Assembly (NCBI GenBank): GCA_944323505.1
Contig: CALUST010000010.1
Coordinates: 62,001-126,000 of the forward strand
Direction: 5' to 3'
From: an uncultured Bacteroidales bacterium
GTDB taxonomy: Bacteria; Bacteroidota; Bacteroidia; Bacteroidales; UBA932
Length of the DNA: 64,000 bases
Position 1 is the first letter of the stretch, and every line of letters starts with the position of its first letter. Of the stretch, positions 22,637 to 62,751 are shown one piece after another. A model generated the notes under the pieces. It made no database searches and was not told the origin of the DNA. It worked only from the letters and a program-made list of their open reading frames with translations. The position numbers were made by a program, and so were the translations under genes.

Positions 22637-24082
22637 TCAGAAATTGAAGTACCTTGCCGCGTTGTTGTATGAAATGTCTTTCACCATCTGATGGATGAAC
22701 TGCATCTCGCTGCGCGGAAGTCTTCCCTTCTCGATATCTTCACCTATTACGCTGCACAGTATGCGGCGGAAATATTCGTGGCGCGGATATGAGAGGAAAC
22801 TGCGGGAGTCTGTGAGCATCCCTACAAAGCGGCTGAACAGACCCAGTGCTGAAAGTGCGTTCATCTGCTTCCTCATGCCGTCCTCCTGGTCCAGGAACCA
22901 CCAGCCGGAGCCGAGCTGCATCTTGCCGGGAACAGTCCCGTCATTGAATGTGTAGGCCATTGTGGCAAGAACCTCGTTGTCCTTAGGGTTGAGATTGTAG
23001 AGTATGGTCTTTGTGAGCTTGTCCTCCATGGCCAGCCGGTTGAGGAACTTGTGTCCTGCTGCTGCGCAGGATACGTCATGGATGGCATCGTATCCTGTAT
23101 CCGGACCGAGTATGTCATACATCCTTGTGTTGTTGTCCCTGATGGCTCCGATGTGGAACTGCTGCACCCAGCCTTTCTCCCAGTCCATCCTGGCGAAGTC
23201 GAGGAGAATCGCGCTCCTGAATTTGAGCACCTCGGTTTCTGTAAGTGTCTCTCCTTTCAGACCTTTCCTGAATATCGCATCAATTTCCTCTGCCTCGAAA
23301 TCCTCGGCATAGAAATTCTCGAGCCCGTGGTCGGAAAGTCTGCATCCCATTGACCCGAAGAAGTCATGGCGTTTCCTCAGTGCATCCAGAAGATCCTGGT
23401 AGCCTGTTATCTGTACGCCTGAGACCTCGGCAAGTCTTCCGATGTATTCCGCGTATCCCGGTTTCTCTATCGCCATGGACTTGTCAGGTCTCCATGCCGG
23501 AAGCACCCTCACTCCGAACGGATGCTCTTCGATATATTTGTGGTATTCCAGTGAGTCGACAGGGTCGTCAGTCGTGCATACTACCTTGACATTGAATCTT
23601 TTCATCAGAGCCTGCCCCCTGTATTCTTCTGTCTGCAGCTTGTCGGTGCATTCGTCGTAGATGGCACGTGCGGTCTGCGGATTGAGCAGGTCATATATGC
23701 CGAACACCCTCGCGAGTTCAAGATGCGTCCAGTGGTACAGAGGATTCCTCATAGTGTACGGCACCGTCTCCGCCCATTTCTCGAATTTCTCATAGCTGCT
23801 CCTCTTGCCTGTTATGAACTCCTCAGGCACGCCGTTGCCGCGCATTGCCCTCCATTTGTAGTGGTCTCCACCGAGCCATACCTCGGTAAGGTCCTTGAAT
23901 CTGTGGTTCTCGGCAATCATCTTCGGCACAAGGTGGCAGTGATAGTCGATGATAGGCATCTTCTCTGCGCTCTCATGGTAGAGTTCGCGCGCATAGTCAT
24001 TGGTGAGCATGAAATCATCATTGATGAATTTCCTGTCCCTGATCACATCGATGTTTTCTTTGACTTTAGATAAAATGTCCAT
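22637..24082 (-). CDS. uxaC: Glucuronate isomerase (uronate isomerase)
   Basis: A 481-residue enzyme that interconverts D-glucuronate with D-fructuronate and D-galacturonate with D-tagaturonate, the first step of hexuronate catabolism in the cytoplasm. It is an amidohydrolase-superfamily barrel: the metal-binding H-C-H of I-D-Y-H-C-H lies near residue 48, a T-T-D-D-P segment follows near 208, and a C-terminal W-W-F-L-D-Q and S-R-S-F-L-S-Y-P-R-H-E-Y-F-R-R block is characteristic. Length is normal (E. coli 470). It diverges from uxaB across 188 bases that hold a shared operator-like palindrome. Confidence 0.97.
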   Translation of the reverse strand: MDILSKVKENIDVIRDRKFINDDFMLTNDYARELYHESAEKMPIIDYHCHLVPKMIAENHRFKDLTEVWLGGDHYKWRAMRGNGVPEEFITGKRSSYEKFEKWAETVPYTMRNPLYHWTHLELARVFGIYDLLNPQTARAIYDECTDKLQTEEYRGQALMKRFNVKVVCTTDDPVDSLEYHKYIEEHPFGVRVLPAWRPDKSMAIEKPGYAEYIGRLAEVSGVQITGYQDLLDALRKRHDFFGSMGCRLSDHGLENFYAEDFEAEEIDAIFRKGLKGETLTETEVLKFRSAILLDFARMDWEKGWVQQFHIGAIRDNNTRMYDILGPDTGYDAIHDVSCAAAGHKFLNRLAMEDKLTKTILYNLNPKDNEVLATMAYTFNDGTVPGKMQLGSGWWFLDQEDGMRKQMNALSALGLFSRFVGMLTDSRSFLSYPRHEYFRRILCSVIGEDIEKGRLPRSEMQFIHQMVKDISYNNAARYFNF

Positions 24083-24193: not shown

Positions 24194-24209
24194 CCGTGAA
24201 CGAACACGG
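24194..24209. promoter_or_regulatory. LacI-type operator, site A (uxaC/uxaB divergent region)
   Basis: CCGTGAACGAACACGG is a near-palindrome with a central CG, the form bound by LacI-family proteins. Its reverse complement differs from site B (61611-61626) at two positions and from site C (27282-27297) at two. It covers the -33 zone of the uxaB promoter, so bound regulator would block polymerase. The likely ligand-responsive protein is the LacI-family gene at 61690. Confidence 0.75.
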
Positions 24210-24217
24210 AAATTTTG

Positions 24218-24225
24218 TACATTTG
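24218..24225 (+). promoter_or_regulatory. -7 box for the uxaB-uxaA transcript
   Basis: TACATTTG matches TAnnTTTG, 45 bases before uxaB. The surrounding 20 bases are nearly identical to those of the lacI promoter at 61636-61643, pointing to shared control. The -33 position is occupied by the operator. Confidence 0.7.
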
Positions 24226-24270: not shown

Positions 24271-25710
24271 ATGGAAAGACTTGACAGAAAAACGGCGGAT
24301 GCCAGGAGATACCCCGACAAGGTGATCCAATTCGGGGAGGGTAACTTCCTCAGGGCATTTGTCGACTGGATTATCTGGAATCTGGACAGGAAGACGGATT
24401 TCAACGGTGGAGTGGTTGTCGTCCAGCCGATAGAAAAAGGTATGGTCGACATGCTCAATGAGCAGGACGGGCTTTATCATCTCAATCTTCAGGGGATAGA
24501 CAAGGGTAAGGCAGTGGATTCGATAGATATGATCGATGTCATCAACAGAGGCATCAATCCGTACCGCGAATTCGATGAATATCTTAAACTTGCCGAGAAC
24601 CCTGACATCCGTTTCGTGATTTCCAACACCACTGAGGCTGGTATAGCGTTTGATCCGTCATGCAGGCTGGAGGACCGTCCGGCCTCTTCGTATCCCGGGA
24701 AACTGACCCAGTTGCTTTATCACAGATATGAATATTTCAAAGGGGATATGACAAAGGGGTTCATTATTTTCCCTTGCGAACTCATATTCCTGAACGGCAA
24801 GGAACTGAAGAAGTGCATAGAACAGTATATCGACCTGTGGAACCTCGGGGACGGTTTCAGGGAATGGTTCAGGAAAGCCTGCGGAGTATATTGCACACTC
24901 GTGGACAGGATAGTCCCGGGTTATCCGAAAGACACCATAGACCAGATATATGAGAGAATCGGCTATGATGACAGACTTGTCGTCAAGGCGGAGATTTTCC
25001 ACCTCTGGGTGATAGAGGCACCGAAAGAGATAGAGAAGGAGTTCCCTGCGGACAAGGCGGGGCTGAATGTCCTTTTCGTGCCGAGCGAGGCCCCATATCA
25101 TGCGCGCAAGGTCACCCTTCTTAACGGACCTCATACCGTGCTTTCTCCTGTGGGATATCTCTCAGGGCTGGATACTGTGAAAGAGTGCGTGGAGGACCCT
25201 CTCATCGGGAGGTTCGTCCGCAAGGTGATGTATGAGGAACTTCTGGAGACCCTGGACCTGCCTAAGCCTGAACTTGAGAAATTTGCCGGGGATGTGCTTG
25301 AAAGATTCGTCAATCCTTACGTGAAGCATTTCGTCACGAGCATAATGCTCAATTCATTCCCTAAATACAAGACTCGCGATCTCCCTGGGCTGAAGACATA
25401 TCTTACCCGTAAAGGGTCGCTTCCTGAGGGACTTGTACTCGGGCTTGCAGGCATCATCACATATTATAAGGGCGGCAGACGCGGCGATGTGGAGATAGTG
25501 CCTGCCGATGACGCGTCCACGATAGCCCTTCTGAAAGGCCTGTGGTCTACGGGTGATGTCAGGAAGGTCGCTGAGGGTGTGCTCGGCGCTGGGCAGATAT
25601 GGGACGAGGACCTGAATGCCGTGCCGGGACTCACGGACATGCTCACTGAAAAACTCGCAATCATTCAGGAGAAAGGAATGCGTGCGGCAGTAGAAACTGT
25701 TGTCGGATAA
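24271..25710 (+). CDS. uxaB: Tagaturonate reductase (altronate oxidoreductase)
   Basis: A 479-residue NADH-dependent dehydrogenase of the mannitol dehydrogenase family that reduces D-tagaturonate to D-altronate. I start at the ATG at 24271; a longer frame from 24196 would begin inside the operator and promoter. An I-Q-F-G-E-G-N-F-L-R nucleotide-binding motif is near residue 18, and the conserved L-N-G-P-H-T and S-I-M-L-N-S-F-P-K-Y segments with catalytic Lys/His residues follow. It is a UxaB rather than UxuB (fructuronate reductase) by overall resemblance to the N-terminal motif, and by pairing with uxaA 6 bases downstream. Confidence 0.9.
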   Translation: MERLDRKTADARRYPDKVIQFGEGNFLRAFVDWIIWNLDRKTDFNGGVVVVQPIEKGMVDMLNEQDGLYHLNLQGIDKGKAVDSIDMIDVINRGINPYREFDEYLKLAENPDIRFVISNTTEAGIAFDPSCRLEDRPASSYPGKLTQLLYHRYEYFKGDMTKGFIIFPCELIFLNGKELKKCIEQYIDLWNLGDGFREWFRKACGVYCTLVDRIVPGYPKDTIDQIYERIGYDDRLVVKAEIFHLWVIEAPKEIEKEFPADKAGLNVLFVPSEAPYHARKVTLLNGPHTVLSPVGYLSGLDTVKECVEDPLIGRFVRKVMYEELLETLDLPKPELEKFAGDVLERFVNPYVKHFVTSIMLNSFPKYKTRDLPGLKTYLTRKGSLPEGLVLGLAGIITYYKGGRRGDVEIVPADDASTIALLKGLWSTGDVRKVAEGVLGAGQIWDEDLNAVPGLTDMLTEKLAIIQEKGMRAAVETVVG

Positions 25711-25716
25711 GCGGTC

Positions 25717-27210
25717 ATGTCAAGGTTCATCAGAATAAACAGCAATGACAATGTCGCCGTTGCCGTCACAGATGTGGCGGAAGGCGACGTCTGTATAATT
25801 GACGGCATTGAAATCAAGGCTGCCGGACCGGTTCCTGCCGGCCACAAGATGGCATTGAGGGATATGTCGGAAGGCGAAGATGTCATCAAGTACGGTTTCC
25901 CTATAGGGCATCTGACGCGAAATGTGTCAAAAGGTTCTCTTATTGACCATAATTCGTTGAAAACCAATCTTGACGGCATACTTGAATATACCTATGATCC
26001 GAAACCTGTCAGACTGCCTGACCCTGGGGTGAAGGCGACATTCAAGGGATTCAGAAGGAAAGACGGGGGAGTAGGCATAAGAAACGAGATATGGATCATC
26101 CCGACTGTCGGGTGCGTCAACGGCATTGTCCGCGAACTCCAGGAGCGTTTTTCAAAGGAACTTCCTGCCTGGCCGTCCATTGACAGGGCGGTGGCGTTCC
26201 CGCACAATTACGGCTGTTCCCAATTGGGTGAGGATCATGAGAATACCAGGAAGATTCTTGCCGACATGGTTCACCATCCCAATGCTGCCGGTGTCCTTGT
26301 TGTCGGACTGGGATGCGAGAACAACCAGCTCGGGGCATTCCGTGAACTTGTCGGTCCTGCCGATGAGTCAAGAGTTAAGTTCATGGAGTCGCAGAAGGTC
26401 CAGGGAGATGAGATAGAGTATGGGATGGCATTGCTGAGGGACATTGCGGCTGCCGCCGCTGAGGACAAGAGGGAGGAAGTCCCTGTCGATGAGCTCAGGA
26501 TAGGACTCAAGTGCGGCGGTTCTGATGGCTTCTCCGGCATCACCGCCAACCCGATGCTCGGGCGTTTTTCGGACTGGCTTGTGGCCAGAGGCGGTACTGC
26601 CGTCCTGACAGAAGTGCCTGAGATGTTCGGCGCGGAGACAATCCTGATGTCCAGATGCAAGGACCGGGCGACATTCGACAAGACAGTGCATCTCATCAAT
26701 GATTTCAAGGAATATTTCATGAGGAACGGCCAGCCCGTATACGAGAACCCTTCCCCGGGCAACAAGGCCGGAGGCATCTCCACTCTTGAGGAGAAATCCC
26801 TCGGATGTACGCAGAAGTCTGGGAAGTCAGAAGTGACAGATGTCCTGAAATATGGGGAGAGGCTTAAGACAAGGGGGCTGAATCTGTTGAGCGCACCGGG
26901 CAATGACCTTGTCGCGGCTACCGCACTGGCTGCTTCCGGCTGTCAGATGGTGCTCTTCACGACAGGCAGAGGTACTCCGTTCGGCACTTTCGTCCCTACG
27001 GTGAAGATTTCCACCAACAGCCGCATCGCTGCAGCCAAGCCGAAGTGGATAGATTTCAATGCCGGTGTCATCACGGACGGCAAGTCTGTCGCACAGACTG
27101 ATGACGAATTCATTGATATGGTGCTGTCCGTGGCCTCCGGGACCTATGTCAATAACGAGACCTCCGGTTATTCTGAAATAGCCATTTTCAAGACAGGAGT
27201 GACCTTGTAG
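25717..27210 (+). CDS. uxaA: Altronate dehydratase
   Basis: A 497-residue iron-dependent lyase that removes water from D-altronate to give 2-keto-3-deoxy-D-gluconate (KDG). The N-terminal SAF domain (about residues 1-95) is followed by the larger dehydratase domain; N-Y-G-C-S near residue 168, a G-L-G-C-E-N motif near 192, L-K-C-G-G-S-D near 264 and a C-terminal T-G-R-G-T-P-F-G block are family marks with cysteines likely used for metal. Both domains are in one chain, as in E. coli UxaA. It follows uxaB by 6 bases and is followed by a terminator-like hairpin at 27271-27327. Confidence 0.95.
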   Translation: MSRFIRINSNDNVAVAVTDVAEGDVCIIDGIEIKAAGPVPAGHKMALRDMSEGEDVIKYGFPIGHLTRNVSKGSLIDHNSLKTNLDGILEYTYDPKPVRLPDPGVKATFKGFRRKDGGVGIRNEIWIIPTVGCVNGIVRELQERFSKELPAWPSIDRAVAFPHNYGCSQLGEDHENTRKILADMVHHPNAAGVLVVGLGCENNQLGAFRELVGPADESRVKFMESQKVQGDEIEYGMALLRDIAAAAAEDKREEVPVDELRIGLKCGGSDGFSGITANPMLGRFSDWLVARGGTAVLTEVPEMFGAETILMSRCKDRATFDKTVHLINDFKEYFMRNGQPVYENPSPGNKAGGISTLEEKSLGCTQKSGKSEVTDVLKYGERLKTRGLNLLSAPGNDLVAATALAASGCQMVLFTTGRGTPFGTFVPTVKISTNSRIAAAKPKWIDFNAGVITDGKSVAQTDDEFIDMVLSVASGTYVNNETSGYSEIAIFKTGVTL

Positions 27211-27239: not shown

Positions 27240-27270
27240 TTGCAATCAAGTATTTTTATGATTACTTTTG
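27240..27270 (+). promoter_or_regulatory. Promoter of kduI
   Basis: TTG at 27240-27242, a 20-base spacer and TACTTTTG at 27263-27270. The same -7 sequence appears in the kdgK promoter. It starts transcription inside the first arm of the hairpin at 27271-27327 and just upstream of operator site C. Confidence 0.6.
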
Positions 27271-27327
27271 CCTGCCGTGTTCCGTTCCCGTTCACGGAAA
27301 TGACGGGACAACGGCAGGCAGTCATTT
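27271..27327 (+). terminator. Terminator-like hairpin that contains an operator, between uxaA and kduI
   Basis: CCTGCCGT at 27271-27278 pairs exactly with ACGGCAGG at 27311-27318, and a run of seven T begins at 27325. Read-through from uxaA would fold the whole stem and stop. A transcript begun at the kduI promoter would start in or after the first arm and escape it. Operator site C lies in the loop. Confidence 0.6.
27282..27297. promoter_or_regulatory. LacI-type operator, site C (kduI)
   Basis: CCGTTCCCGTTCACGG shares 14 of 16 positions with sites A (reverse strand) and B. It begins 11 bases after the -7 box, near the transcription start, where a bound repressor could block initiation or clearance of polymerase. 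Confidence 0.7.
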
Positions 27328-27345
27328 TTTTAACGGATTTATAGT

Positions 27346-28188
27346 ATGAGAACCAACAGTGACGTCAGATATGCCGCGCATCCTGATGATGTCAGGCATT
27401 ATGACACAAGACAGCTCAGGGAGCACTATCTTATTGAGAAAGTTTTCGCTGCAGACGAGGTCAATATCGTGTATACCATGCATGACAGGATGATAGCCGG
27501 AGGGGCGATGCCTGTCAGGGAATCTCTTGAACTTGTGCCGGCCGATATCCTGAGGTCGGAGTATTTTCTCTCAAGGAGGGAGATGGGCATCTTCAATGTC
27601 GGCGGCAAGGGTGTCGTCAAGGCAGGGGACAAAGCCTACCGGATGGAATACAAGGAGGCCCTGTATCTCGGAAGAGGAGACCGGAAGATATTTTTTGAAA
27701 GTCTTGATCCGGCCGATCCTGCCAAGTTCTATTTCTGCAGTTCCCCGGCTCATGCGGAGTATCCGGATCATCTGACTACCCGTGCCGAGGCTGTCCACAT
27801 GGAGCTCGGTACGCTTGAGGAGAGCAACCACCGTGTCATCAACAGGATGCTTGTCAAGGAAGTCGTCCCTACCTGCCAGTTGCAGATGGGCATGACGGAA
27901 CTGAAGCCGGGAAGCACCTGGAATACCATGCCGGCACATACGCATAACCGCAGGATGGAGGTATATTTCTACTTTGAGATTCCTGAGGACCAGGCGGTAT
28001 GCCATTTCATGGGCCGTCCCGACGAGACGAGACACATCTGGATGAAGGGGGAGCAGGCCGTGATTTCCCCTGAGTGGAGCATCCATTCCGCTTGTGCCAC
28101 AAGAAACTATACATTTATCTGGGCCATGTGCGGGGAGAACTTGGACTACGGGGACATGGACGGATGCGCTACTACCGATCTGAGGTAG
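27346..28188 (+). CDS. kduI: 5-dehydro-4-deoxy-D-glucuronate isomerase
   Basis: A 280-residue cupin-fold isomerase that converts 4-deoxy-L-threo-5-hexosulose uronate (DKI), the product of unsaturated uronic acids released by polysaccharide lyases, to 2,5-diketo-3-deoxygluconate. The zinc site is visible as H-T-H-N-R-R-M-E and a later H residue in W-S-I-H-S. The R-x-H-P-D start, G-G-K-G centre and C-terminal W-A-M-x-G-E-N segment match KduI. Length equals that of E. coli KduI (278). It is 43 bases upstream of kduD, and together they link lyase products to KDG. Confidence 0.96.
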   Translation: MRTNSDVRYAAHPDDVRHYDTRQLREHYLIEKVFAADEVNIVYTMHDRMIAGGAMPVRESLELVPADILRSEYFLSRREMGIFNVGGKGVVKAGDKAYRMEYKEALYLGRGDRKIFFESLDPADPAKFYFCSSPAHAEYPDHLTTRAEAVHMELGTLEESNHRVINRMLVKEVVPTCQLQMGMTELKPGSTWNTMPAHTHNRRMEVYFYFEIPEDQAVCHFMGRPDETRHIWMKGEQAVISPEWSIHSACATRNYTFIWAMCGENLDYGDMDGCATTDLR

Positions 28189-28231: not shown

Positions 28232-29026
28232 ATGGTAAGTTTTTCATTGGAAGGGAAAGTGGCCCTTGTGACCGGGGCATCCTACGGAATCGGTTTCGCA
28301 TTGGCAACAGCCTTTGCCGAGGCCGGGGCGAAGATTGCATTCAACGACATCAGGCAAGAACTTGTGGACAAGGGACTGGCATCATACAGGGAGAAAGGGA
28401 TTGACGCCAGGGGATATGTCTGCGATGTCACCAAGGAGGACCAGGTACAGGCTCTCGTGGCGGATATCGAGAGGGATCTCGGCCCGATAAATATCCTTGT
28501 GAACAATGCCGGTATCATCAAGCGTATCCCTATGACTGAGATGACTGCCGATGAGTTCAGGCAGGTGATAGACGTGGACCTGAATGCACCGTTCATTGTG
28601 TCCAAGGCTGTCATCCCGTCAATGATAAGGAACGGCGGAGGCAAGATCATCAACATCTGCTCGATGATGTCAGAACTCGGACGCGAGACCGTATCCGCCT
28701 ATGCTGCGGCGAAGGGCGGGCTGAAGATGCTGACCCGGAATATCGCCTCCGAATATGGAGAATACAATATCCAGTGCAACGGTATCGGTCCGGGCTACAT
28801 CGCCACTCCTCAGACTGCACCTCTCCGCGAGCGTCAGCCTGACGGATCACGCCATCCTTTCGATTCGTTCATCGTGGCCAAGACTCCTGCCGCGAGATGG
28901 GGGACGACAGAGGATCTCATGGGACCTGCAGTCTTCCTGGCATCATCGGCATCGGATTTCGTGAACGGACATATCCTCTACGTAGACGGCGGTATTCTCG
29001 CCTATATCGGCAAGCAGCCAAAATAG
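28232..29026 (+). CDS. kduD: 2-deoxy-D-gluconate 3-dehydrogenase (2,5-diketo-3-deoxygluconate reductase)
   Basis: A 264-residue short-chain dehydrogenase that reduces 2,5-diketo-3-deoxygluconate to KDG with NAD(P)H. It has the cofactor motif T-G-A-S-Y-G-I-G (residues 14-21), N-N-A-G near 89, and the catalytic Ser-Tyr-Lys set with Y-A-A-A-K-G. An insertion near residues 190-220 (R-Q-P-D-G-S-R-H-P-F) is typical of the KduD group. It lies between kduI and the DUF4861 gene, 8 bases before the latter. Confidence 0.92.
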   Translation: MVSFSLEGKVALVTGASYGIGFALATAFAEAGAKIAFNDIRQELVDKGLASYREKGIDARGYVCDVTKEDQVQALVADIERDLGPINILVNNAGIIKRIPMTEMTADEFRQVIDVDLNAPFIVSKAVIPSMIRNGGGKIINICSMMSELGRETVSAYAAAKGGLKMLTRNIASEYGEYNIQCNGIGPGYIATPQTAPLRERQPDGSRHPFDSFIVAKTPAARWGTTEDLMGPAVFLASSASDFVNGHILYVDGGILAYIGKQPK

Positions 29027-29034
29027 GAAGCGAT

Positions 29035-30168
29035 ATGAGAAGATTCTTTGTATTTGCGGCAGCCGCAGTATCCGCTGTGTGCCTGCTTTCCTGCTCATCA
29101 CGTCAGGCAGTGACAGTGGTGGTGGAGAATGATTCTGAACTTCCTCGTACCTGCGAGACTGTGGAACTCGATTTCAAGACCCTTGCCTCTGAGGTGGAGG
29201 AATTGACGGAGGACAATGCGGTGGTGCTGGATGCCGAAGGCGTCCAGTTGCCGGTGCAGGTCTATACTGAGAGACATGGCAGGGAACTGCTCATATTCCA
29301 GGCTACAGTGCCTGCAGGGGGGACAATGGAATATACTGTCACGGCCGGTGTGCGTGAACCGTATGATACCCTTGCCTACAGCAGATATGTCCCTGAAAGG
29401 GCGGATGACTATGCCTACGAGAACAACCTTGTAGCAGGCCGCATCTATGGTCCGGCACTTGCTGACCCGAGGACTTTCGGGCCTGATATCTGGCTCAAGA
29501 GCACTGACAGGCTCATCATAGACGAGTGGTATGCGAAGAACGACTACCACCACAACTATGGAGAAGGGATGGATTGCTACAAGGTCGCCAATACTCTCGG
29601 AGGAGGGGCTCTTGCTCCTTATGTAGGGGACAGGATCATCATAGGGGACAATTATGCCGAGCAGGAGCGTATCTGTAACGGGCCTGTGCGCACAAAAGCC
29701 GTCCTGAAGTATGATGAGATCAATGTCGACGGCAATCTTGTGACGACTGTCAAGGAAATTTCCCTTGATGCCAATTCAAGGTTCCTGAAGACATCCACCT
29801 GGTTTGATGCCGTCAGCATCCAGGAGATTCCGGTTGTACTCGGTGCGGTCATGCACGATGTCGTGGCAAGGACTGACGGGGACCATTATATCGCCTTTAC
29901 GGAAAAGGCTTCCGACAGTTCCGATCCGGAGCGGGACGGGAATATTTCTGTCGGTCTCGTTGTGGATGCTGCCGAGCAGGGTGTGGAGGCCGCCACGATG
30001 GACGGACATGCCGTGCTCAAGGCTGTCGCCACGTCAGGCAAGAGATTTGATGTCTGGACAGGATCCGGCTGGAGCCAGGGTGGCATAGAGTCACCTGAGG
30101 CCTGGGCAGACGCGGTGAAGGACTTTGCCTATGCGCAGGCTCATCCATTGAAAGTGACTGTGAAATAA
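29035..30168 (+). CDS. DUF4861-family lipoprotein
   Basis: A 377-residue lipoprotein (start at 29035, signal ending V-C-L-L-S-C) that resembles the DUF4861 family. An upstream in-frame start at 28897 lies inside kduD and is rejected. The body is rich in beta strands with conserved-looking segments Y-V-P-E-R-A-D-D-Y-A-Y-E-N-N near residue 115 and H-N-Y-G-E-G-M-D near 180. DUF4861 genes occur with uronate and alginate or pectin degradation genes in Bacteroidota, and some are suspected to act on unsaturated uronic acid sugars, but I know of no settled reaction. Its place directly after kduD supports a surface or periplasmic role in uronate release. Confidence 0.75.
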   Translation: MRRFFVFAAAAVSAVCLLSCSSRQAVTVVVENDSELPRTCETVELDFKTLASEVEELTEDNAVVLDAEGVQLPVQVYTERHGRELLIFQATVPAGGTMEYTVTAGVREPYDTLAYSRYVPERADDYAYENNLVAGRIYGPALADPRTFGPDIWLKSTDRLIIDEWYAKNDYHHNYGEGMDCYKVANTLGGGALAPYVGDRIIIGDNYAEQERICNGPVRTKAVLKYDEINVDGNLVTTVKEISLDANSRFLKTSTWFDAVSIQEIPVVLGAVMHDVVARTDGDHYIAFTEKASDSSDPERDGNISVGLVVDAAEQGVEAATMDGHAVLKAVATSGKRFDVWTGSGWSQGGIESPEAWADAVKDFAYAQAHPLKVTVK

Positions 30169-58101: not shown

Positions 58102-59754
58102 TCATATTTCGATTTTCTTGTATCTCGGGACAAGCGACTTCATTATTGCCCATGCGACAAGATAGGCGACAGCACATAGGCTGAACACGATCATGTATGC
58201 CGCAGGCTTGCCGTCAAGTCCGAACATCGTGATAGGAGCGTCAACTATCTGCCCCCCTATTTCCTGTATCTTGTCCAGCATCAGTTGCGTGGTCTCGTTG
58301 GTCGTGGCACCTCGCGTAAGTTCTGCTATAGCCGGATTGTTGACGTGCTCGATCGCCTTTGAGATGTTGTCTGCAGAGATGACTGCCGGTTCCTCTGCCC
58401 CCGGGTATATGAATGTCCCGGCGAATTTGTCAAAGAGCCTGCCCGCTCCCAGCTGTATGAAGAACGAGCCTATTCCGCCGGCCATCCCGCCGATACCTGT
58501 GATTGTGGATATGGCTGACTTAGGGAACATGTCGCCGATGGTGGAGAACAGGTTGGCCGACCATGCCTGATGTCCGGCTCCCGCCAGTCCTATGATGATT
58601 GCCGGCCACCATACGGAGATGCTTCCTGCTCCTTGCGCGAACAGTGCAGGCAGAGGCAGGAATGCGAATATCAGCATCGCAAGCATACGCCCGTTGTAAG
58701 GATTCATGCCCTTCCTCTCTACGAACAGTTTCGGCAGATAGCCTCCGAAGATTGAGAGGACCGTGACTATGGCGTACAATGTCGTGATGAGGGCTACTCC
58801 CATGCCTGAACTTGACGCATATCCGTACTGGTCGGAGAAATAGGCCGGAGCCCAGAACAGGTAGAACCACCATACGCCGTCGGTGAAGAACTTGCCGACG
58901 ATGAATGACCATGTCTGCTTGTAGGTGAAGCATTTCCACAGAGGGAGAGGCTTGCCTTCGCTTTCAGTCCCGGCGTCCTTTGCCGTGTCGTGCTCTTCCG
59001 TATAGTCCTGGTTGATGTATTCGAGTTCGGCCTTGTTGACATGCCTTGACTTCTCCGGCTTGTTGTACATGAACACCCAGAATCCCATCCAGACGTATCC
59101 GAGTGCACCGATGATGACGAATGCCATCTCCCATCCTCCTCCGATGCCGCGGTCCTTGAAGAACTGGGCGAGGAGAGGGATTGTCGCCGGTGCGATGAGT
59201 GCGCCTATCGAGGCTCCCGAATTGAATATGGACGTGGCGAAAGCCCTGTCCTTCTTAGGGAAATATTCGGCTGTCACCTTGATTGCCGCCGGGAAGTTGC
59301 CGGCCTCGCCGAGTGCGAGGATACACCGTGCCGCAAGGAAGAGCCACACGCTTGTGGACGCGATTGCCAGGGCGGCTGTCGTCCCGGCCTGTACCGCTGT
59401 CATGGCTGCTGCATTGTCATAGCCCTCGATGTGCACTGTCAGCCATCCGCATATCGCGTGCAGACAGGCGCCGGTAGACCATATCCCGATAGACCAGAGG
59501 TAGCCTTTCTTTGTCCCCATCCAGTCCACGAATCTCCCGGCGAAAAGCATACATACGGCGTAGAAAATGGAGAATACAGCCGTTATGAGACCGTAATCGC
59601 TGTCTTCCCAGTGGAATTCGGGCGCGATGAAGTCTTTCCATGTCAGGGACAATACCTGCCTGTCAAGATAGTTGACCGTGGTCGCCACGAAAAGCAGGAC
59701 CACCATCCACCATCTCCAGTTGGTCATCAGTTTCTTTGTAGTGCTTTGTTCCAT
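58102..59754 (-). CDS. exuT: Hexuronate MFS transporter (ExuT-like)
   Basis: A 550-residue major facilitator of the anion:cation symporter group that imports glucuronate/galacturonate. It has twelve predicted helices; N-Y-x-D-R-Q near residue 28 and the G-E-A-G-N-F-P-A segment near 168 are ExuT-type marks. Two features differ from E. coli ExuT (about 430 residues): an enlarged central loop (about 230-275) and an insert of some 75 residues before the last helix, at about 58205-58430, predicted to lie outside the membrane. It is the last gene of kdgK-eda-exuT; the symbol is by pathway context. Confidence 0.86.
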   Translation of the reverse strand: MEQSTTKKLMTNWRWWMVVLLFVATTVNYLDRQVLSLTWKDFIAPEFHWEDSDYGLITAVFSIFYAVCMLFAGRFVDWMGTKKGYLWSIGIWSTGACLHAICGWLTVHIEGYDNAAAMTAVQAGTTAALAIASTSVWLFLAARCILALGEAGNFPAAIKVTAEYFPKKDRAFATSIFNSGASIGALIAPATIPLLAQFFKDRGIGGGWEMAFVIIGALGYVWMGFWVFMYNKPEKSRHVNKAELEYINQDYTEEHDTAKDAGTESEGKPLPLWKCFTYKQTWSFIVGKFFTDGVWWFYLFWAPAYFSDQYGYASSSGMGVALITTLYAIVTVLSIFGGYLPKLFVERKGMNPYNGRMLAMLIFAFLPLPALFAQGAGSISVWWPAIIIGLAGAGHQAWSANLFSTIGDMFPKSAISTITGIGGMAGGIGSFFIQLGAGRLFDKFAGTFIYPGAEEPAVISADNISKAIEHVNNPAIAELTRGATTNETTQLMLDKIQEIGGQIVDAPITMFGLDGKPAAYMIVFSLCAVAYLVAWAIMKSLVPRYKKIEI

Positions 59755-59794: not shown

Positions 59795-60463
59795 TCAGTT
59801 TCTCACTTCTTTGATGATTTCAAGAGCATCGCGGCATAGCCCGGTGATTTTGCTCCAGTCCTTGGCGGCAATCACTTCCTTAGGGAAGAGGTTGCTGCCC
59901 ATTCCCACACAGGTGACTCCTGCCTTGAACCATCCTTCAAGATTTTCTTTTGTCGGTCTTACCCCTCCTGTGACCATTATCTGGCTCCACGGCATCGGCG
60001 CCCTCAGCCCTTTGACGAAAGCAGGCCCGAGCACATCACCCGGAAATACCTTGCAGAGGTCGCAGCCGAGTTCCTGGGCAGCCCCGATTTCCGATACGCT
60101 GCCGCATCCCGGGCAATACGGTATGAGTCTCCTGTTACATATCGGTGCGATGGCAGGATTGAAAAGCGGCCCTACCACGAAGTTCGCCCCGAGTTGGATA
60201 TAGAGGGCTGCTGTACCTGGATCGACTACAGAGCCGACACCGAGAATCATCCCCGGGAGTTCCTTGTCTGCGAACTTGACCAGTTCACCGAATACTTCCT
60301 GGGCGAAATCCCCCCTGTTTGTGAATTCGAAAGCTCTAACGCCTCCATCATAGCAGGCTTTGAGCACAGCCTTTGCCGTCTCGATGTCAGAATTATAGAA
60401 CACCGGGACCATTCCGGTCTCTTTCATGGCGGAAAGGACCTCTATCTTGTTGTATCTTGCCAT
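59795..60463 (-). CDS. eda: KDPG aldolase (2-dehydro-3-deoxyphosphogluconate aldolase)
   Basis: A 222-residue class I aldolase that splits KDPG to pyruvate and glyceraldehyde 3-phosphate. The Schiff-base lysine is in C-K-V-F-P-G near residue 138, the general base Glu in R-A-F-E-F-T-N near 43, and the phosphate-binding G-G-V motif near 174 (V-T-G-G-V). It lies between kdgK and the transporter gene, 34 and 40 bases from each. It completes the uronate route from KDG made by uxaA and kduD. Confidence 0.93.
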
Positions 60464-60497: not shown

Positions 60498-61538
60498 TTA
60501 TCTGGAAACCCTTCCGGAGCCGTCTCCTTTCATGAGATTCTCGACCTCGGCCACAGTCACCTGGTTGAAGTCGCCGAAAATCGTGTGCTTGAGGCAGGAT
60601 GCTGCCACCGCGAAATTCAGGGCCTTCTGGTCGTCTCCCGTATATGTCAGCAGACCGTAAATGAGTCCTCCCATGAAGGAGTCTCCTCCTCCGACCCTGT
60701 CCACAATGTGGGTAATGTCGTAGCGCGGAGACTGGAAAAGCCTGCTGCCGTCATACAGGACGCCTCCCCATGTGTTATGGTTGGCATTGATGGACCCTCT
60801 CAGGGTGATGATGACTTTCTTCGCACGAGGGAACCTTGCCATCAGCTGCTTGCAGACGCTTTCGAACTCGACGGCATTGACTTCGCCTTTTGTGGCTGTC
60901 ACATCGAATCCTTCAGGCTTGATGCCGAATACCTTTTCTGCATCCTCCTCATTGCCGAGTATCACATCGCAACCGGCCACGAGTTCCGGCATCACCTCTG
61001 ATGACGTCTTGCCGTATTTCCAGAGATTTTTCCTGTAGTTGAGGTCGCATGACACTGTCACGCCGAGTCTGTTGGCTGCCTTGATGGCCTCCAGGCAAAC
61101 ATCAGCCGCACCCTGGCTTATAGCCGGTGTGATTCCTGTCCAGTGGAACCAGTCTGCGCCTTCAAAGACCTTGTCCCAGTCTATCATGCCTTTCTCTATC
61201 TCGGAGATGGCAGAGTGCGCCCTGTCATAGACTACTTTGCTTGCACGGGCCACCGCTCCTGTCTCCAGGAAGTAGATGCCGAGCCTGTCCCCTCCGAATA
61301 TGCAGTGTCTTGTGCCCACACCGTAGCTGTGGAGATCCCTGATGCAGCTCTGCGCTATGTCGTTCTTCGGGAATCTTGTCACGAACTCGGTATCTATGCC
61401 GTAGTTGGCAAGTGATACGGCCACATTGGCTTCTCCTCCTCCGAATGTGGCTTCAAATTGTCTGGCCTGGGAAAATCTCAGATAGCCCGGAGTCGACAGC
61501 CTGAGCATGATCTCTCCGAATGTGATTACTTTTGGCAT
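60498..61538 (-). CDS. kdgK: 2-keto-3-deoxygluconate kinase
   Basis: A 346-residue PfkB-family sugar kinase that phosphorylates KDG to KDPG. The N-terminal G-G-x-x-A-N-V-A motif (G-G-G-E-A-N-V-A-V) is near residue 35, and the C-terminal PfkB signature G-G-G-D-S-F-M-G-G near 285 holds the catalytic Asp. It is the first gene of the three-gene unit and diverges from the LacI-family regulator. The length is near that of E. coli KdgK (309) with a slightly longer C-terminus. Confidence 0.93.
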   Translation of the reverse strand: MPKVITFGEIMLRLSTPGYLRFSQARQFEATFGGGEANVAVSLANYGIDTEFVTRFPKNDIAQSCIRDLHSYGVGTRHCIFGGDRLGIYFLETGAVARASKVVYDRAHSAISEIEKGMIDWDKVFEGADWFHWTGITPAISQGAADVCLEAIKAANRLGVTVSCDLNYRKNLWKYGKTSSEVMPELVAGCDVILGNEEDAEKVFGIKPEGFDVTATKGEVNAVEFESVCKQLMARFPRAKKVIITLRGSINANHNTWGGVLYDGSRLFQSPRYDITHIVDRVGGGDSFMGGLIYGLLTYTGDDQKALNFAVAASCLKHTIFGDFNQVTVAEVENLMKGDGSGRVSR

Positions 61539-61585: not shown

Positions 61586-61593
61586 CAAAAGTA
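61586..61593 (-). promoter_or_regulatory. -7 box for kdgK-eda-exuT
   Basis: The minus strand reads TACTTTTG, an exact TAnnTTTG match, identical to the kduI box, 48 bases before kdgK. Operator site B begins 17 bases upstream and covers the -33 position. Confidence 0.7.
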
Positions 61594-61610: not shown

Positions 61611-61626
61611 TCGTGCTCGTTCACGG
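61611..61626. promoter_or_regulatory. LacI-type operator, site B (kdgK / lacI divergent region)
   Basis: TCGTGCTCGTTCACGG is a near-palindrome with central CG. It sits between divergent promoters: 17 bases from the kdgK -7 box and 9 bases from the regulator's -7 box, covering both -33 zones. This predicts joint control of kdgK-eda-exuT and autoregulation of the regulator. Confidence 0.75.
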
Positions 61627-61635
61627 AAAATTTTG

Positions 61636-61643
61636 TACATTTG
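61636..61643 (+). promoter_or_regulatory. -7 box for the LacI-family regulator
   Basis: TACATTTG matches TAnnTTTG. The surrounding bases from the operator to this box are almost the same as at uxaB (24205-24225), including ATTTTGTACATTTG. Confidence 0.7.
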
Positions 61644-61689: not shown

Positions 61690-62751
61690 ATGAACAAGTC
61701 CCGAAACATGACAATCAATGACGTGGCCAAGGCCGCAGGTGTCTCTAAAGGTACGGTTGACAGGGTGTTACACAATAGGGGAGAGGTGTCTGAGCGCAGC
61801 CGGGAACGTGTACTGCAGGTCATAAAGGATTTCGGATACAAGCCGAACATCTATGCCTCGCTGCTTGCTTCCAAGAAAGTCCACAAGATAGTATGTATCA
61901 TTCCGGAGTTCTCAGCAGGGGAGTTCTGGGAATTGACGGACAAAGGAATCGGGAAGGGGAGGGAATATGCCTCCGGATATGGGATTTCTGTCGTGACAGT
62001 GCAGTATGACCAGTATGACCTTGAGTCTTTCCAGCGTGCCTGCACAAAGGCCATGGACGAGAACCCTACAGGAGTCATCATAGCCCCCATGTTCAGGATG
62101 GAGACTCTCAAGTTCGTGAAGGAACTGTCAGACAGAGGTATTGCCTACATGTATATCGACTCCAAACTGGAAGATGACGGTTATCTTGCATATTTCGGTA
62201 TGCCGATGTACCAGAGCGGATACCTTTGCGCAGATCTGCTGACTGACGGCCGTGATGTCAGGAAGATACATGTAATAAGGATTGCCAGGGACAAGAAGGG
62301 TCATTCTGACCCTACAGTGACGCGCAGGACAGGTTTTCTCGACTATATGAGCGACCATTATCCGGAATGCCGGATAGAGAATGTGTTCATAGATCCGAAA
62401 GACAATGCCGACATATACGCCAAGCTGGATGCCTTGTTCAACGGGGACTCCCGGCCGGAATACATGGTCATGTTCAATTCGAGGATTCACCTTGTCGCTG
62501 ATTATCTCCGTGCCAGGGACATCAGCGGATGCCGGGTAGTGGGCTTCGATGTGCTTGAGAAGAATCTGGCTGCCCTGAGGGACGGCCATGTCCAGCTGCT
62601 GATAGCCCAGCATTCTGACAGCCAGGCTGCAGCGGCTATTTCATCCATGACGGAATGGCTTCTCATCGGGAAGCCGCTTGCCCGGAAGGACAACTACACC
62701 CAGATGGACATCCTCAACCGCTACAATTGCGACTATTATCTGCAGAAATAA
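61690..62751 (+). CDS. LacI-family transcriptional regulator of uronate genes
   Basis: A 353-residue regulator. I start at the ATG at 61690 so that the helix-turn-helix (M-T-I-N-D-V-A-K-A-A-G-V-S-K-G-T-V-D-R-V-L) begins near residue 7; an upstream ATG at 61633 overlaps the promoter box. A hinge helix follows near 50-60 (K-P-N-I-Y-A-S-L-L), then a periplasmic-binding-like ligand domain (about 62-335). The gene diverges from kdgK. A 16-base palindrome at its own promoter recurs before uxaB/uxaC and kduI, so it probably controls the whole uronate set, with KDG, KDPG or a hexuronate as likely ligand (inference). Confidence 0.92.
   Translation: MNKSRNMTINDVAKAAGVSKGTVDRVLHNRGEVSERSRERVLQVIKDFGYKPNIYASLLASKKVHKIVCIIPEFSAGEFWELTDKGIGKGREYASGYGISVVTVQYDQYDLESFQRACTKAMDENPTGVIIAPMFRMETLKFVKELSDRGIAYMYIDSKLEDDGYLAYFGMPMYQSGYLCADLLTDGRDVRKIHVIRIARDKKGHSDPTVTRRTGFLDYMSDHYPECRIENVFIDPKDNADIYAKLDALFNGDSRPEYMVMFNSRIHLVADYLRARDISGCRVVGFDVLEKNLAALRDGHVQLLIAQHSDSQAAAAISSMTEWLLIGKPLARKDNYTQMDILNRYNCDYYLQK

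Follow-up and report, generated by a model that had tools for sequence, protein, structure and literature searches.

Two separated groups of uronate genes lie in a 64,000-nucleotide stretch of DNA from an uncultured Bacteroidales bacterium (the window, meaning the whole stretch that was analyzed), and copies of a 16-bp motif stand at promoters in both. The question was whether one LacI-family repressor controls the two groups, and whether its control ends with them.

Uronate genes and their regulator

The gene functions proposed in an earlier note on this DNA were confirmed by protein profiles:

22637..24082, minus strand: uxaC, glucuronate isomerase (NF002794, 665 bits; PF02614)
24271..25710, plus strand: uxaB, tagaturonate reductase (NF002969, 638 bits, cutoff 359)
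25717..27210, plus strand: uxaA-like gene of the altronate/galactarate dehydratase family (PF20629, PF04295; TIGR03248 below its cutoff)
27346..28188, plus strand: kduI, 5-dehydro-4-deoxy-D-glucuronate isomerase (NF002091, 424.8 bits, cutoff 250)
28232..29026, plus strand: kduD/gno-like SDR dehydrogenase (NF005488, 503.6 bits, cutoff 369)
58102..59754, minus strand: MFS transporter after kdgK and eda (PF07690; TIGR00893 below its cutoff), likely for uronate uptake
59795..60463, minus strand: eda, KDPG aldolase (NF005499, 379.9 bits, cutoff 275)
60498..61538, minus strand: kdgK-like PfkB-family kinase (PF00294; best NCBIfam match, NF041633, below its cutoff)
61690..62751, plus strand: LacI-family regulator (HTH and Peripla_BP_4; PF00356, PF13407), recognition helix VSKGTVDRV

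A gene for a DUF4861 protein (BT_3233 family, below the NCBIfam cutoff; window 28897-30168) followed the kduI-kduD pair, possibly on the same transcript.

The regulator matched PF00356 at 8-53 (64.3 bits, cutoff 27) and PF13407 at 70-322 (89 bits, cutoff 35.1), profiles from which its membership in the LacI/GalR family is clear. Its best sequence match in the PDB, 3gbv, covered residues 59-351 only. The nearest named relative was the protein of Candidatus Cryptobacteroides merdavium, with 81% identity.

Three predicted operators with a common palindrome

The three 16-mers were found where they had been reported:

24194..24209, minus strand: predicted LacI-type operator CCGTGAACGAACACGG between the divergent uxaC and uxaB; exact match, covering the predicted -33 zone of uxaB
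27282..27297, plus strand: predicted operator CCGTTCCCGTTCACGG at the predicted kduI transcription start; exact match, the weakest of the three
61611..61626, plus strand: predicted operator TCGTGCTCGTTCACGG between the divergent kdgK and lacI; exact match, conserved upstream of lacI

Exact matches to the pattern first proposed for them, YCGTKYYCGTTCACGG, were confined to these three, both in the window and in the 1.93-Mb, 90%-complete assembly. With up to three mismatches, 13 matches were found in the window versus 4.3 expected, and none of 100 shuffles reached 13. Genome-wide, up to two mismatches gave 22 matches versus 27 for a reversed control pattern, so loose matches to YCGTKYYCGTTCACGG carried no signal and near-exact ones alone were meaningful. 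In view of these 22 versus 27 matches this asymmetric consensus, which was the note's own, was not the right model, and we replaced it by the palindrome YCGTKNNCGNNMACGR. All three sites conform to the palindrome, which, with its CG center, is in sequence a typical LacI-family operator form.

The Bacteroides sigma-ABfr consensus is described as TAnnTTTG at -7 and TTTG at -33 (PMC7366714). Four -7 boxes were predicted from the sequence:

24218..24225, plus strand: predicted -7 box TACATTTG of uxaB
27263..27270, plus strand: predicted -7 box TACTTTTG of kduI
61586..61593, minus strand: predicted -7 box TACTTTTG of kdgK, starting, on that strand, 33 nt past the start of the operator
61636..61643, plus strand: predicted -7 box TACATTTG of lacI

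At uxaB and lacI the operator started 24 and 25 nt, respectively, before the start of the box, and therefore covered the expected -33 zone. At kduI the box comes first, and the operator starts 19 nt past its beginning. These distances agreed with the earlier placement of the sites, over the -33 zone at two promoters and in the start region at the third. They also bore out that the LacI-family gene carries a copy at its own promoter (61611-61626, with the box at 61636..61643).

A scan of seven whole genomes with YCGTKNNCGNNMACGR gave 54 matches versus 21 for the reversed control; in one of the seven (G012) the control exceeded the motif, with 6 matches versus 5. The genome under study had eight exact matches: at uxaB, kduI, lacI/kdgK, the start of a gene for pyruvate:ferredoxin oxidoreductase (PFOR; contig C39), a SusC gene and rseC, and two in coding DNA on contigs C26 and C33. 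Thus six of the eight were at promoters of coherent function, and the motif was not equally frequent at unrelated genes; equal frequency there would have counted against the proposal. All five matches in genome G059 were at lacI/kdgK, rseC, PFOR, kduI and uxaB.

Operator and regulator in relatives

The site upstream of lacI was conserved in relatives. In the first set of genomes, YCGTKNNCGNNMACGR was exact in 6/6 with a LacI of at least 62% identity. With LacI at 45-56% identity it was exact in 11/13; one more had one mismatch, and locus L044 had no site. Among named loci with LacI of at least 42% identity (L275-L315), the 300 bp upstream of lacI contained an exact site in 39/41, the misses being L288 and L313. 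None of the 39 more distant named loci (L316-L354) had it exact upstream of lacI.

The protein varied along with the site. In the recognition helix, the position preceding GTVDRV holds K in 42 of the 80 rows L275-L354, V in 34 and I in 4. Among rows with a core palindrome, the combination of C at operator position 2 and G at position 15 occurred in 38/39 K rows, in 0/28 V rows and in 1/3 I rows, while the V rows had T at position 2 in 22/28 and A at position 15 in 27/28. In these sequences, protein type is linked to site type, as a correlation among related sequences.

Orthologous uxaB and kduI genes were compared over the first 60 relatives by scanning the last 260 bp upstream; orthologues below 45% identity, or aligned only from after residue 10, were left out. 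The six first-set genomes with LacI of at least 62% identity served as the close group, and uxaB and kduI were found in five of them (the sixth, G007, is 61% complete). Upstream of uxaB, a site with at most one mismatch was present in 5/5 of these versus 3/19 others; upstream of kduI, in 5/5 versus 1/25. The operator was thus kept at both orthologous genes.

The kduI copy

A strong hairpin at about 27269-27320 (strand unassigned), followed by seven T, encloses the kduI operator (-34.7 kcal/mol, z -5.45 over 27258-27345). It had been missed in the earlier note, and it was absent from the listing of our terminator scan, the loop limit of which excludes such a hairpin. The hairpin is likely the terminator of uxaB-uxaA, and operator and terminator may overlap here.

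The kduI sites stood at differing distances from the gene across the five close genomes, so that position was not conserved. Because the position moves between relatives and the site sits in a likely terminator hairpin, the kduI copy was regarded as the weakest of the three.

The 16-mer at kduI might then be accidental, being part of the uxaB-uxaA terminator, with kduI outside the regulon in this species. The hairpin and T tract would fit this, as would the half-site CCGTTCCCG, which is unlike the usual CCGTTA or CCGTG halves, and the differing position of the site in the four relatives examined. Against it stood the presence of a site upstream of kduI in all five close-LacI genomes versus one of 25 others, and the site of genome G041 has the same half-site form as CCGTTCCCG. 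We considered an accidental copy rather unlikely and retained kduI as a predicted target.

A predicted operator at the PFOR gene

The PFOR gene of this genome on contig C10 matched TIGR02176 with 1890 bits (cutoff 911). For the comparison, a single PFOR copy was taken from each of 79 genomes, selected by similarity among 312 with a match. A site with at most one mismatch was present upstream of PFOR in 35 of the 40 genomes with a LacI of at least 59% identity (29 exact), versus 6 of the 39 others (4 exact). The co-occurrence had a Fisher p of 5e-11 with relatedness ignored. Shuffled regions gave 0.005 expected sites per region at one mismatch.

The site kept its distance to the promoter. The operator started 22 nt after the start of TAnnTTTG in 19/35 and 19-27 nt after it in 32/35, the remaining 3 having no box; of two overlapping sites with equal scores, the one closer to 22 nt was counted. 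In four genomes without the LacI (G053, G426, G419 and G108), the -7 box was kept and the operator was absent.

There were exceptions in both directions. Sites without a close LacI were exact in G417, G340, G279 and G399 and had one mismatch in G222 and G437. LacI genomes without a PFOR site were G325, G378 (only 54 bp upstream available), G329, G383 and G305. Three further copies were not counted: that of contig C39 in our genome (exact), that of G389 on contig C91, and a second copy in G056 on contig C53, which has an exact site in a genome without a LacI match and speaks against control of PFOR by this LacI.

The copy counted for our own genome, on contig C10, had one-mismatch sites only; the exact one lay on contig C39, with the first 13 codons of a PFOR gene. 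The assembly thus holds two versions of the fabD-PFOR intergenic region at contig ends (L004 1501-1516 on C10; L005 71-86 on C39). Both have an operator-like site at a comparable place, and they are paralogues or strain variants.

A predicted operator inside rseC, ahead of the rnf genes

Classical LacI/GalR operators are 16-bp palindromes with a central CG, placed at or after a promoter and also at the regulator's own divergent promoter. Unlike these, one site here lies inside a coding gene, rseC, next to an internal promoter-like box. The genes after rseC matched rnfB, C, D, G, E and A. A frozen promoter-like stretch lies at gene nt 264-287 of rseC (L518 8210-8641).

The site was compared in 81 genomes (16 of 30 earlier loci, 25 new loci and 40 stretches). 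The exact operator at rseC nt 292 was present in 42/46 genomes of the LacI group versus 5/35 others (8/35 if one mismatch was allowed); 14 loci left out of this comparison (L241-L254) had no site with one mismatch or fewer, and including them would give 5/49. Directly before the operator, at nt 280, TAnnTTTG occurred in frame in 46/46 of the LacI group and 27/35 of the others. Exact sites without a close LacI were those of G283, G279, G311, G339 and G281; LacI genomes without the site were G007, G305, G226 and G338.

From nt 264 to 287, third codon positions were almost invariant in the LacI group (entropy 0-0.15). After nt 309, 29 of the 32 codons listed had a third-position entropy of at least 1.0 bit; some codons of nt 237-255 were also conserved. 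Such a pattern would fit a conserved promoter within rseC that serves the rnf genes.

At the third positions fixed by the operator (293, 296, 299 and 305), entropy in the LacI group was 0.26, 0.26, 0.35 and 0.50. It was 1.73, 1.09, 1.48 and 1.57 in 27 others, namely those of the 35 that have the box in register, the box letters thereby being fixed by construction. The adjoining positions free of the operator (290 and 302) were variable in both groups. The 42 exact sites encode ten different six-residue peptides, and the synonymous bases of the operator stay fixed. This sequence pattern is not readily explained by protein constraint alone.

How far the co-occurrence depends on cutoffs and kinship

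The 59% cut in LacI identity was set after the list of identities had been viewed. Just below it were 57% (G377, a partial match, with a one-mismatch rseC site), 55% (G202) and 53% (G312). The LacI of G386 was also a partial match. For G175, G225 and G181 the identity was entered as 40; their E-values of 1.6e-83 to 9.4e-79 are far above those of the close group.

Eleven genomes had a PFOR or rseC site without a close LacI. They are 72-85% complete, and a missed lacI gene is possible in them.

On a tree of rseC built without the promoter-operator stretch, the presence of a close LacI changed 12 times, at least three of them on starred branches. One starred clade of six (G053, G029, G426, G419, G108 and G115) gave no LacI match at E<=1e-60 and contained no exact rseC operator, G108 being one mismatch away. 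Pair tests corrected for the tree gave a median p of 0.5 from 3 usable pairs and were underpowered.

Proposed control and its alternatives

The finding of one LacI regulon at the uronate genes stood, and a single LacI uronate regulon, with predicted binding and effector, was supported. The part of the earlier claim that limited it to 37 kb did not stand, because operators were found beyond the window as well, at PFOR, at rnf and at a SusC/SusD locus. We think it quite probable, from sequence comparison, that one LacI protein (61690-62751) binds palindromic operators at the uronate genes, its own gene, PFOR, Rnf and SusC/SusD.

The protein would repress the uronate genes, its own gene, PFOR, the Rnf complex and likely a pectin uptake locus, and a uronate-derived molecule would release it from the operators. 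Judged from the pathway, the effector would most likely be 2-keto-3-deoxygluconate (KDG) or a related acid. Judged from position, an operator over the predicted -33 zone (uxaB, lacI, kdgK) may block polymerase binding, and one just after the -7 box (kduI, PFOR, rnf) may block initiation or escape.

Uronates are oxidized sugars, and UxaB consumes NADH, which PFOR and Rnf supply. Growth on uronates may for these reasons call for additional pyruvate oxidation by PFOR and for extra Rnf activity that recycles reduced ferredoxin to NADH. With one repressor, the breakdown of the sugars and the supply of electrons would be released at the same time.

The usual view of a substrate-specific sugar repressor is that it controls its own pathway. 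We favor, with less assurance than the regulon itself, the wider proposal that PFOR (operator about 22 nt past the start of the -7 box) and Rnf (operator in rseC after a frozen internal promoter) are under the direct control of a LacI repressor for pectin sugars in Candidatus Cryptobacteroides. One sugar-acid sensor would thereby switch both carbon entry and ferredoxin electron flow.

The main alternative is an ordinary uronate regulon, in which LacI controls uronate genes only, while a different regulator with a similar site binds at PFOR and rseC or the sites there are inherited by descent. The published LacI-family regulons of KdgR (BT0487), UxaR (BT0824) and UxuR (BT1434) in Bacteroides are described for the uronate and KDG pathways (PMC3878776, PMC4052901), which speaks for this alternative. 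It is also in line with the persistence of both kinds of site in some genomes without a detected close LacI, and with the lack of significance in the tree-corrected tests. On the other hand, the palindrome at PFOR and rseC is the same one and co-occurs with this LacI, the sites are absent in the starred clade that lacks it, and the synonymous bases are frozen in the LacI group only. A second K-type LacI was also missing among the matches in our own genome, where the sole other match of the LacI query has V at that helix residue. We regarded a uronate-only regulon as unlikely, slightly more so than an accidental kduI copy, and kept direct control of PFOR and Rnf as the preferred reading.

That the sites are RNA hairpins or terminators instead of operators is very improbable: the kduI site does lie inside a strong hairpin with a T tract and the uxaB palindrome scored as terminator-like on both strands, but uxaC/uxaB and kdgK/lacI are divergent, so that a terminator would be out of place there, folding of the uxaB and lacI stretches was no better than that of shuffles (z -0.58 and -0.92), and the uxaB, lacI and PFOR sites keep register with the -7 boxes.

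Relation to known systems

The regulator would share with KdgR, UxaR and UxuR the LacI-family control of glucuronate, galacturonate and KDG pathways in Bacteroidales. Its uronate neighborhood is also like that of this branch, with kdgK-like, eda and MFS genes beside lacI and an operator at uxaB and kduI. In loci L318-L345 (mostly Bacteroides, LacI 33-37% identical), kdgK- and eda-like genes were divergent from lacI in 23/28. The V-type regulators of loci L275-L354 mostly go with T and A at operator positions 2 and 15, whereas here C and G go with a helix K.

PFOR, rnf and a coding-embedded operator are absent from the main descriptions of the Bacteroides regulons, supplementary regulon tables aside (PMC3878776, PMC4052901). 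In the open-access literature searched, the same tables excepted, neither control of PFOR or Rnf by a LacI protein nor such a coding-embedded operator came up. From these comparisons, the uronate part is already known in kind from KdgR, UxaR and UxuR, and the extension to PFOR and rnf, with an operator embedded in rseC, is apparently new.

In B. thetaiotaomicron under carbon limitation, the rnf operon and the glucuronate genes alike are dependent on the Crp-like master regulator BT4338; its binding is described as not seen upstream of rnf or the glucuronate genes, and another regulator is suggested by the authors (PMC6989115). There the two are co-controlled, apparently indirectly, whereas here a LacI-type operator stands at both. 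The joint rise of rnf and glucuronate genes that depends on BT4338 would be compatible with the proposed repression.

If the proposal is right, the sensing of sugars from pectin and plant fiber would be tied to core energy metabolism through two ferredoxin-linked enzymes. The fermentation balance of an uncultured genus of gut and rumen would be tuned directly to pectin acids, which would bear on acetate and hydrogen output. Bacteria would also offer a clear natural example of overlapping codes, a regulatory site maintained within a coding gene whose peptide there can change freely.

The SusC/SusD locus and other sites

The neighbors of the SusC gene code for SusD, a GH88-family protein and fn3 lipoproteins. 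This is consistent with uptake of unsaturated uronides, likely pectin uptake. The SusC site was exact in 3/5 orthologues of the LacI group; the other two had one mismatch, that of G041 being far upstream at -366. SusC orthologues of 5 other genomes had no site with at most one mismatch.

Single exact sites were also seen elsewhere in relatives. G052 had an intergenic one upstream of a gene for 632 aa that matched no Pfam family (L199 2946-2961), and in G041 the palindrome CCGTTATCGGTAACGG stood between a gene of the AraC family and one coding for a thioredoxin-like domain (L203 3020-3035). In G012, the LacI of which is 50% identical, the operator lay between a pectinesterase/GH28 pair and a melibiase-family gene (L204 3025-3040).
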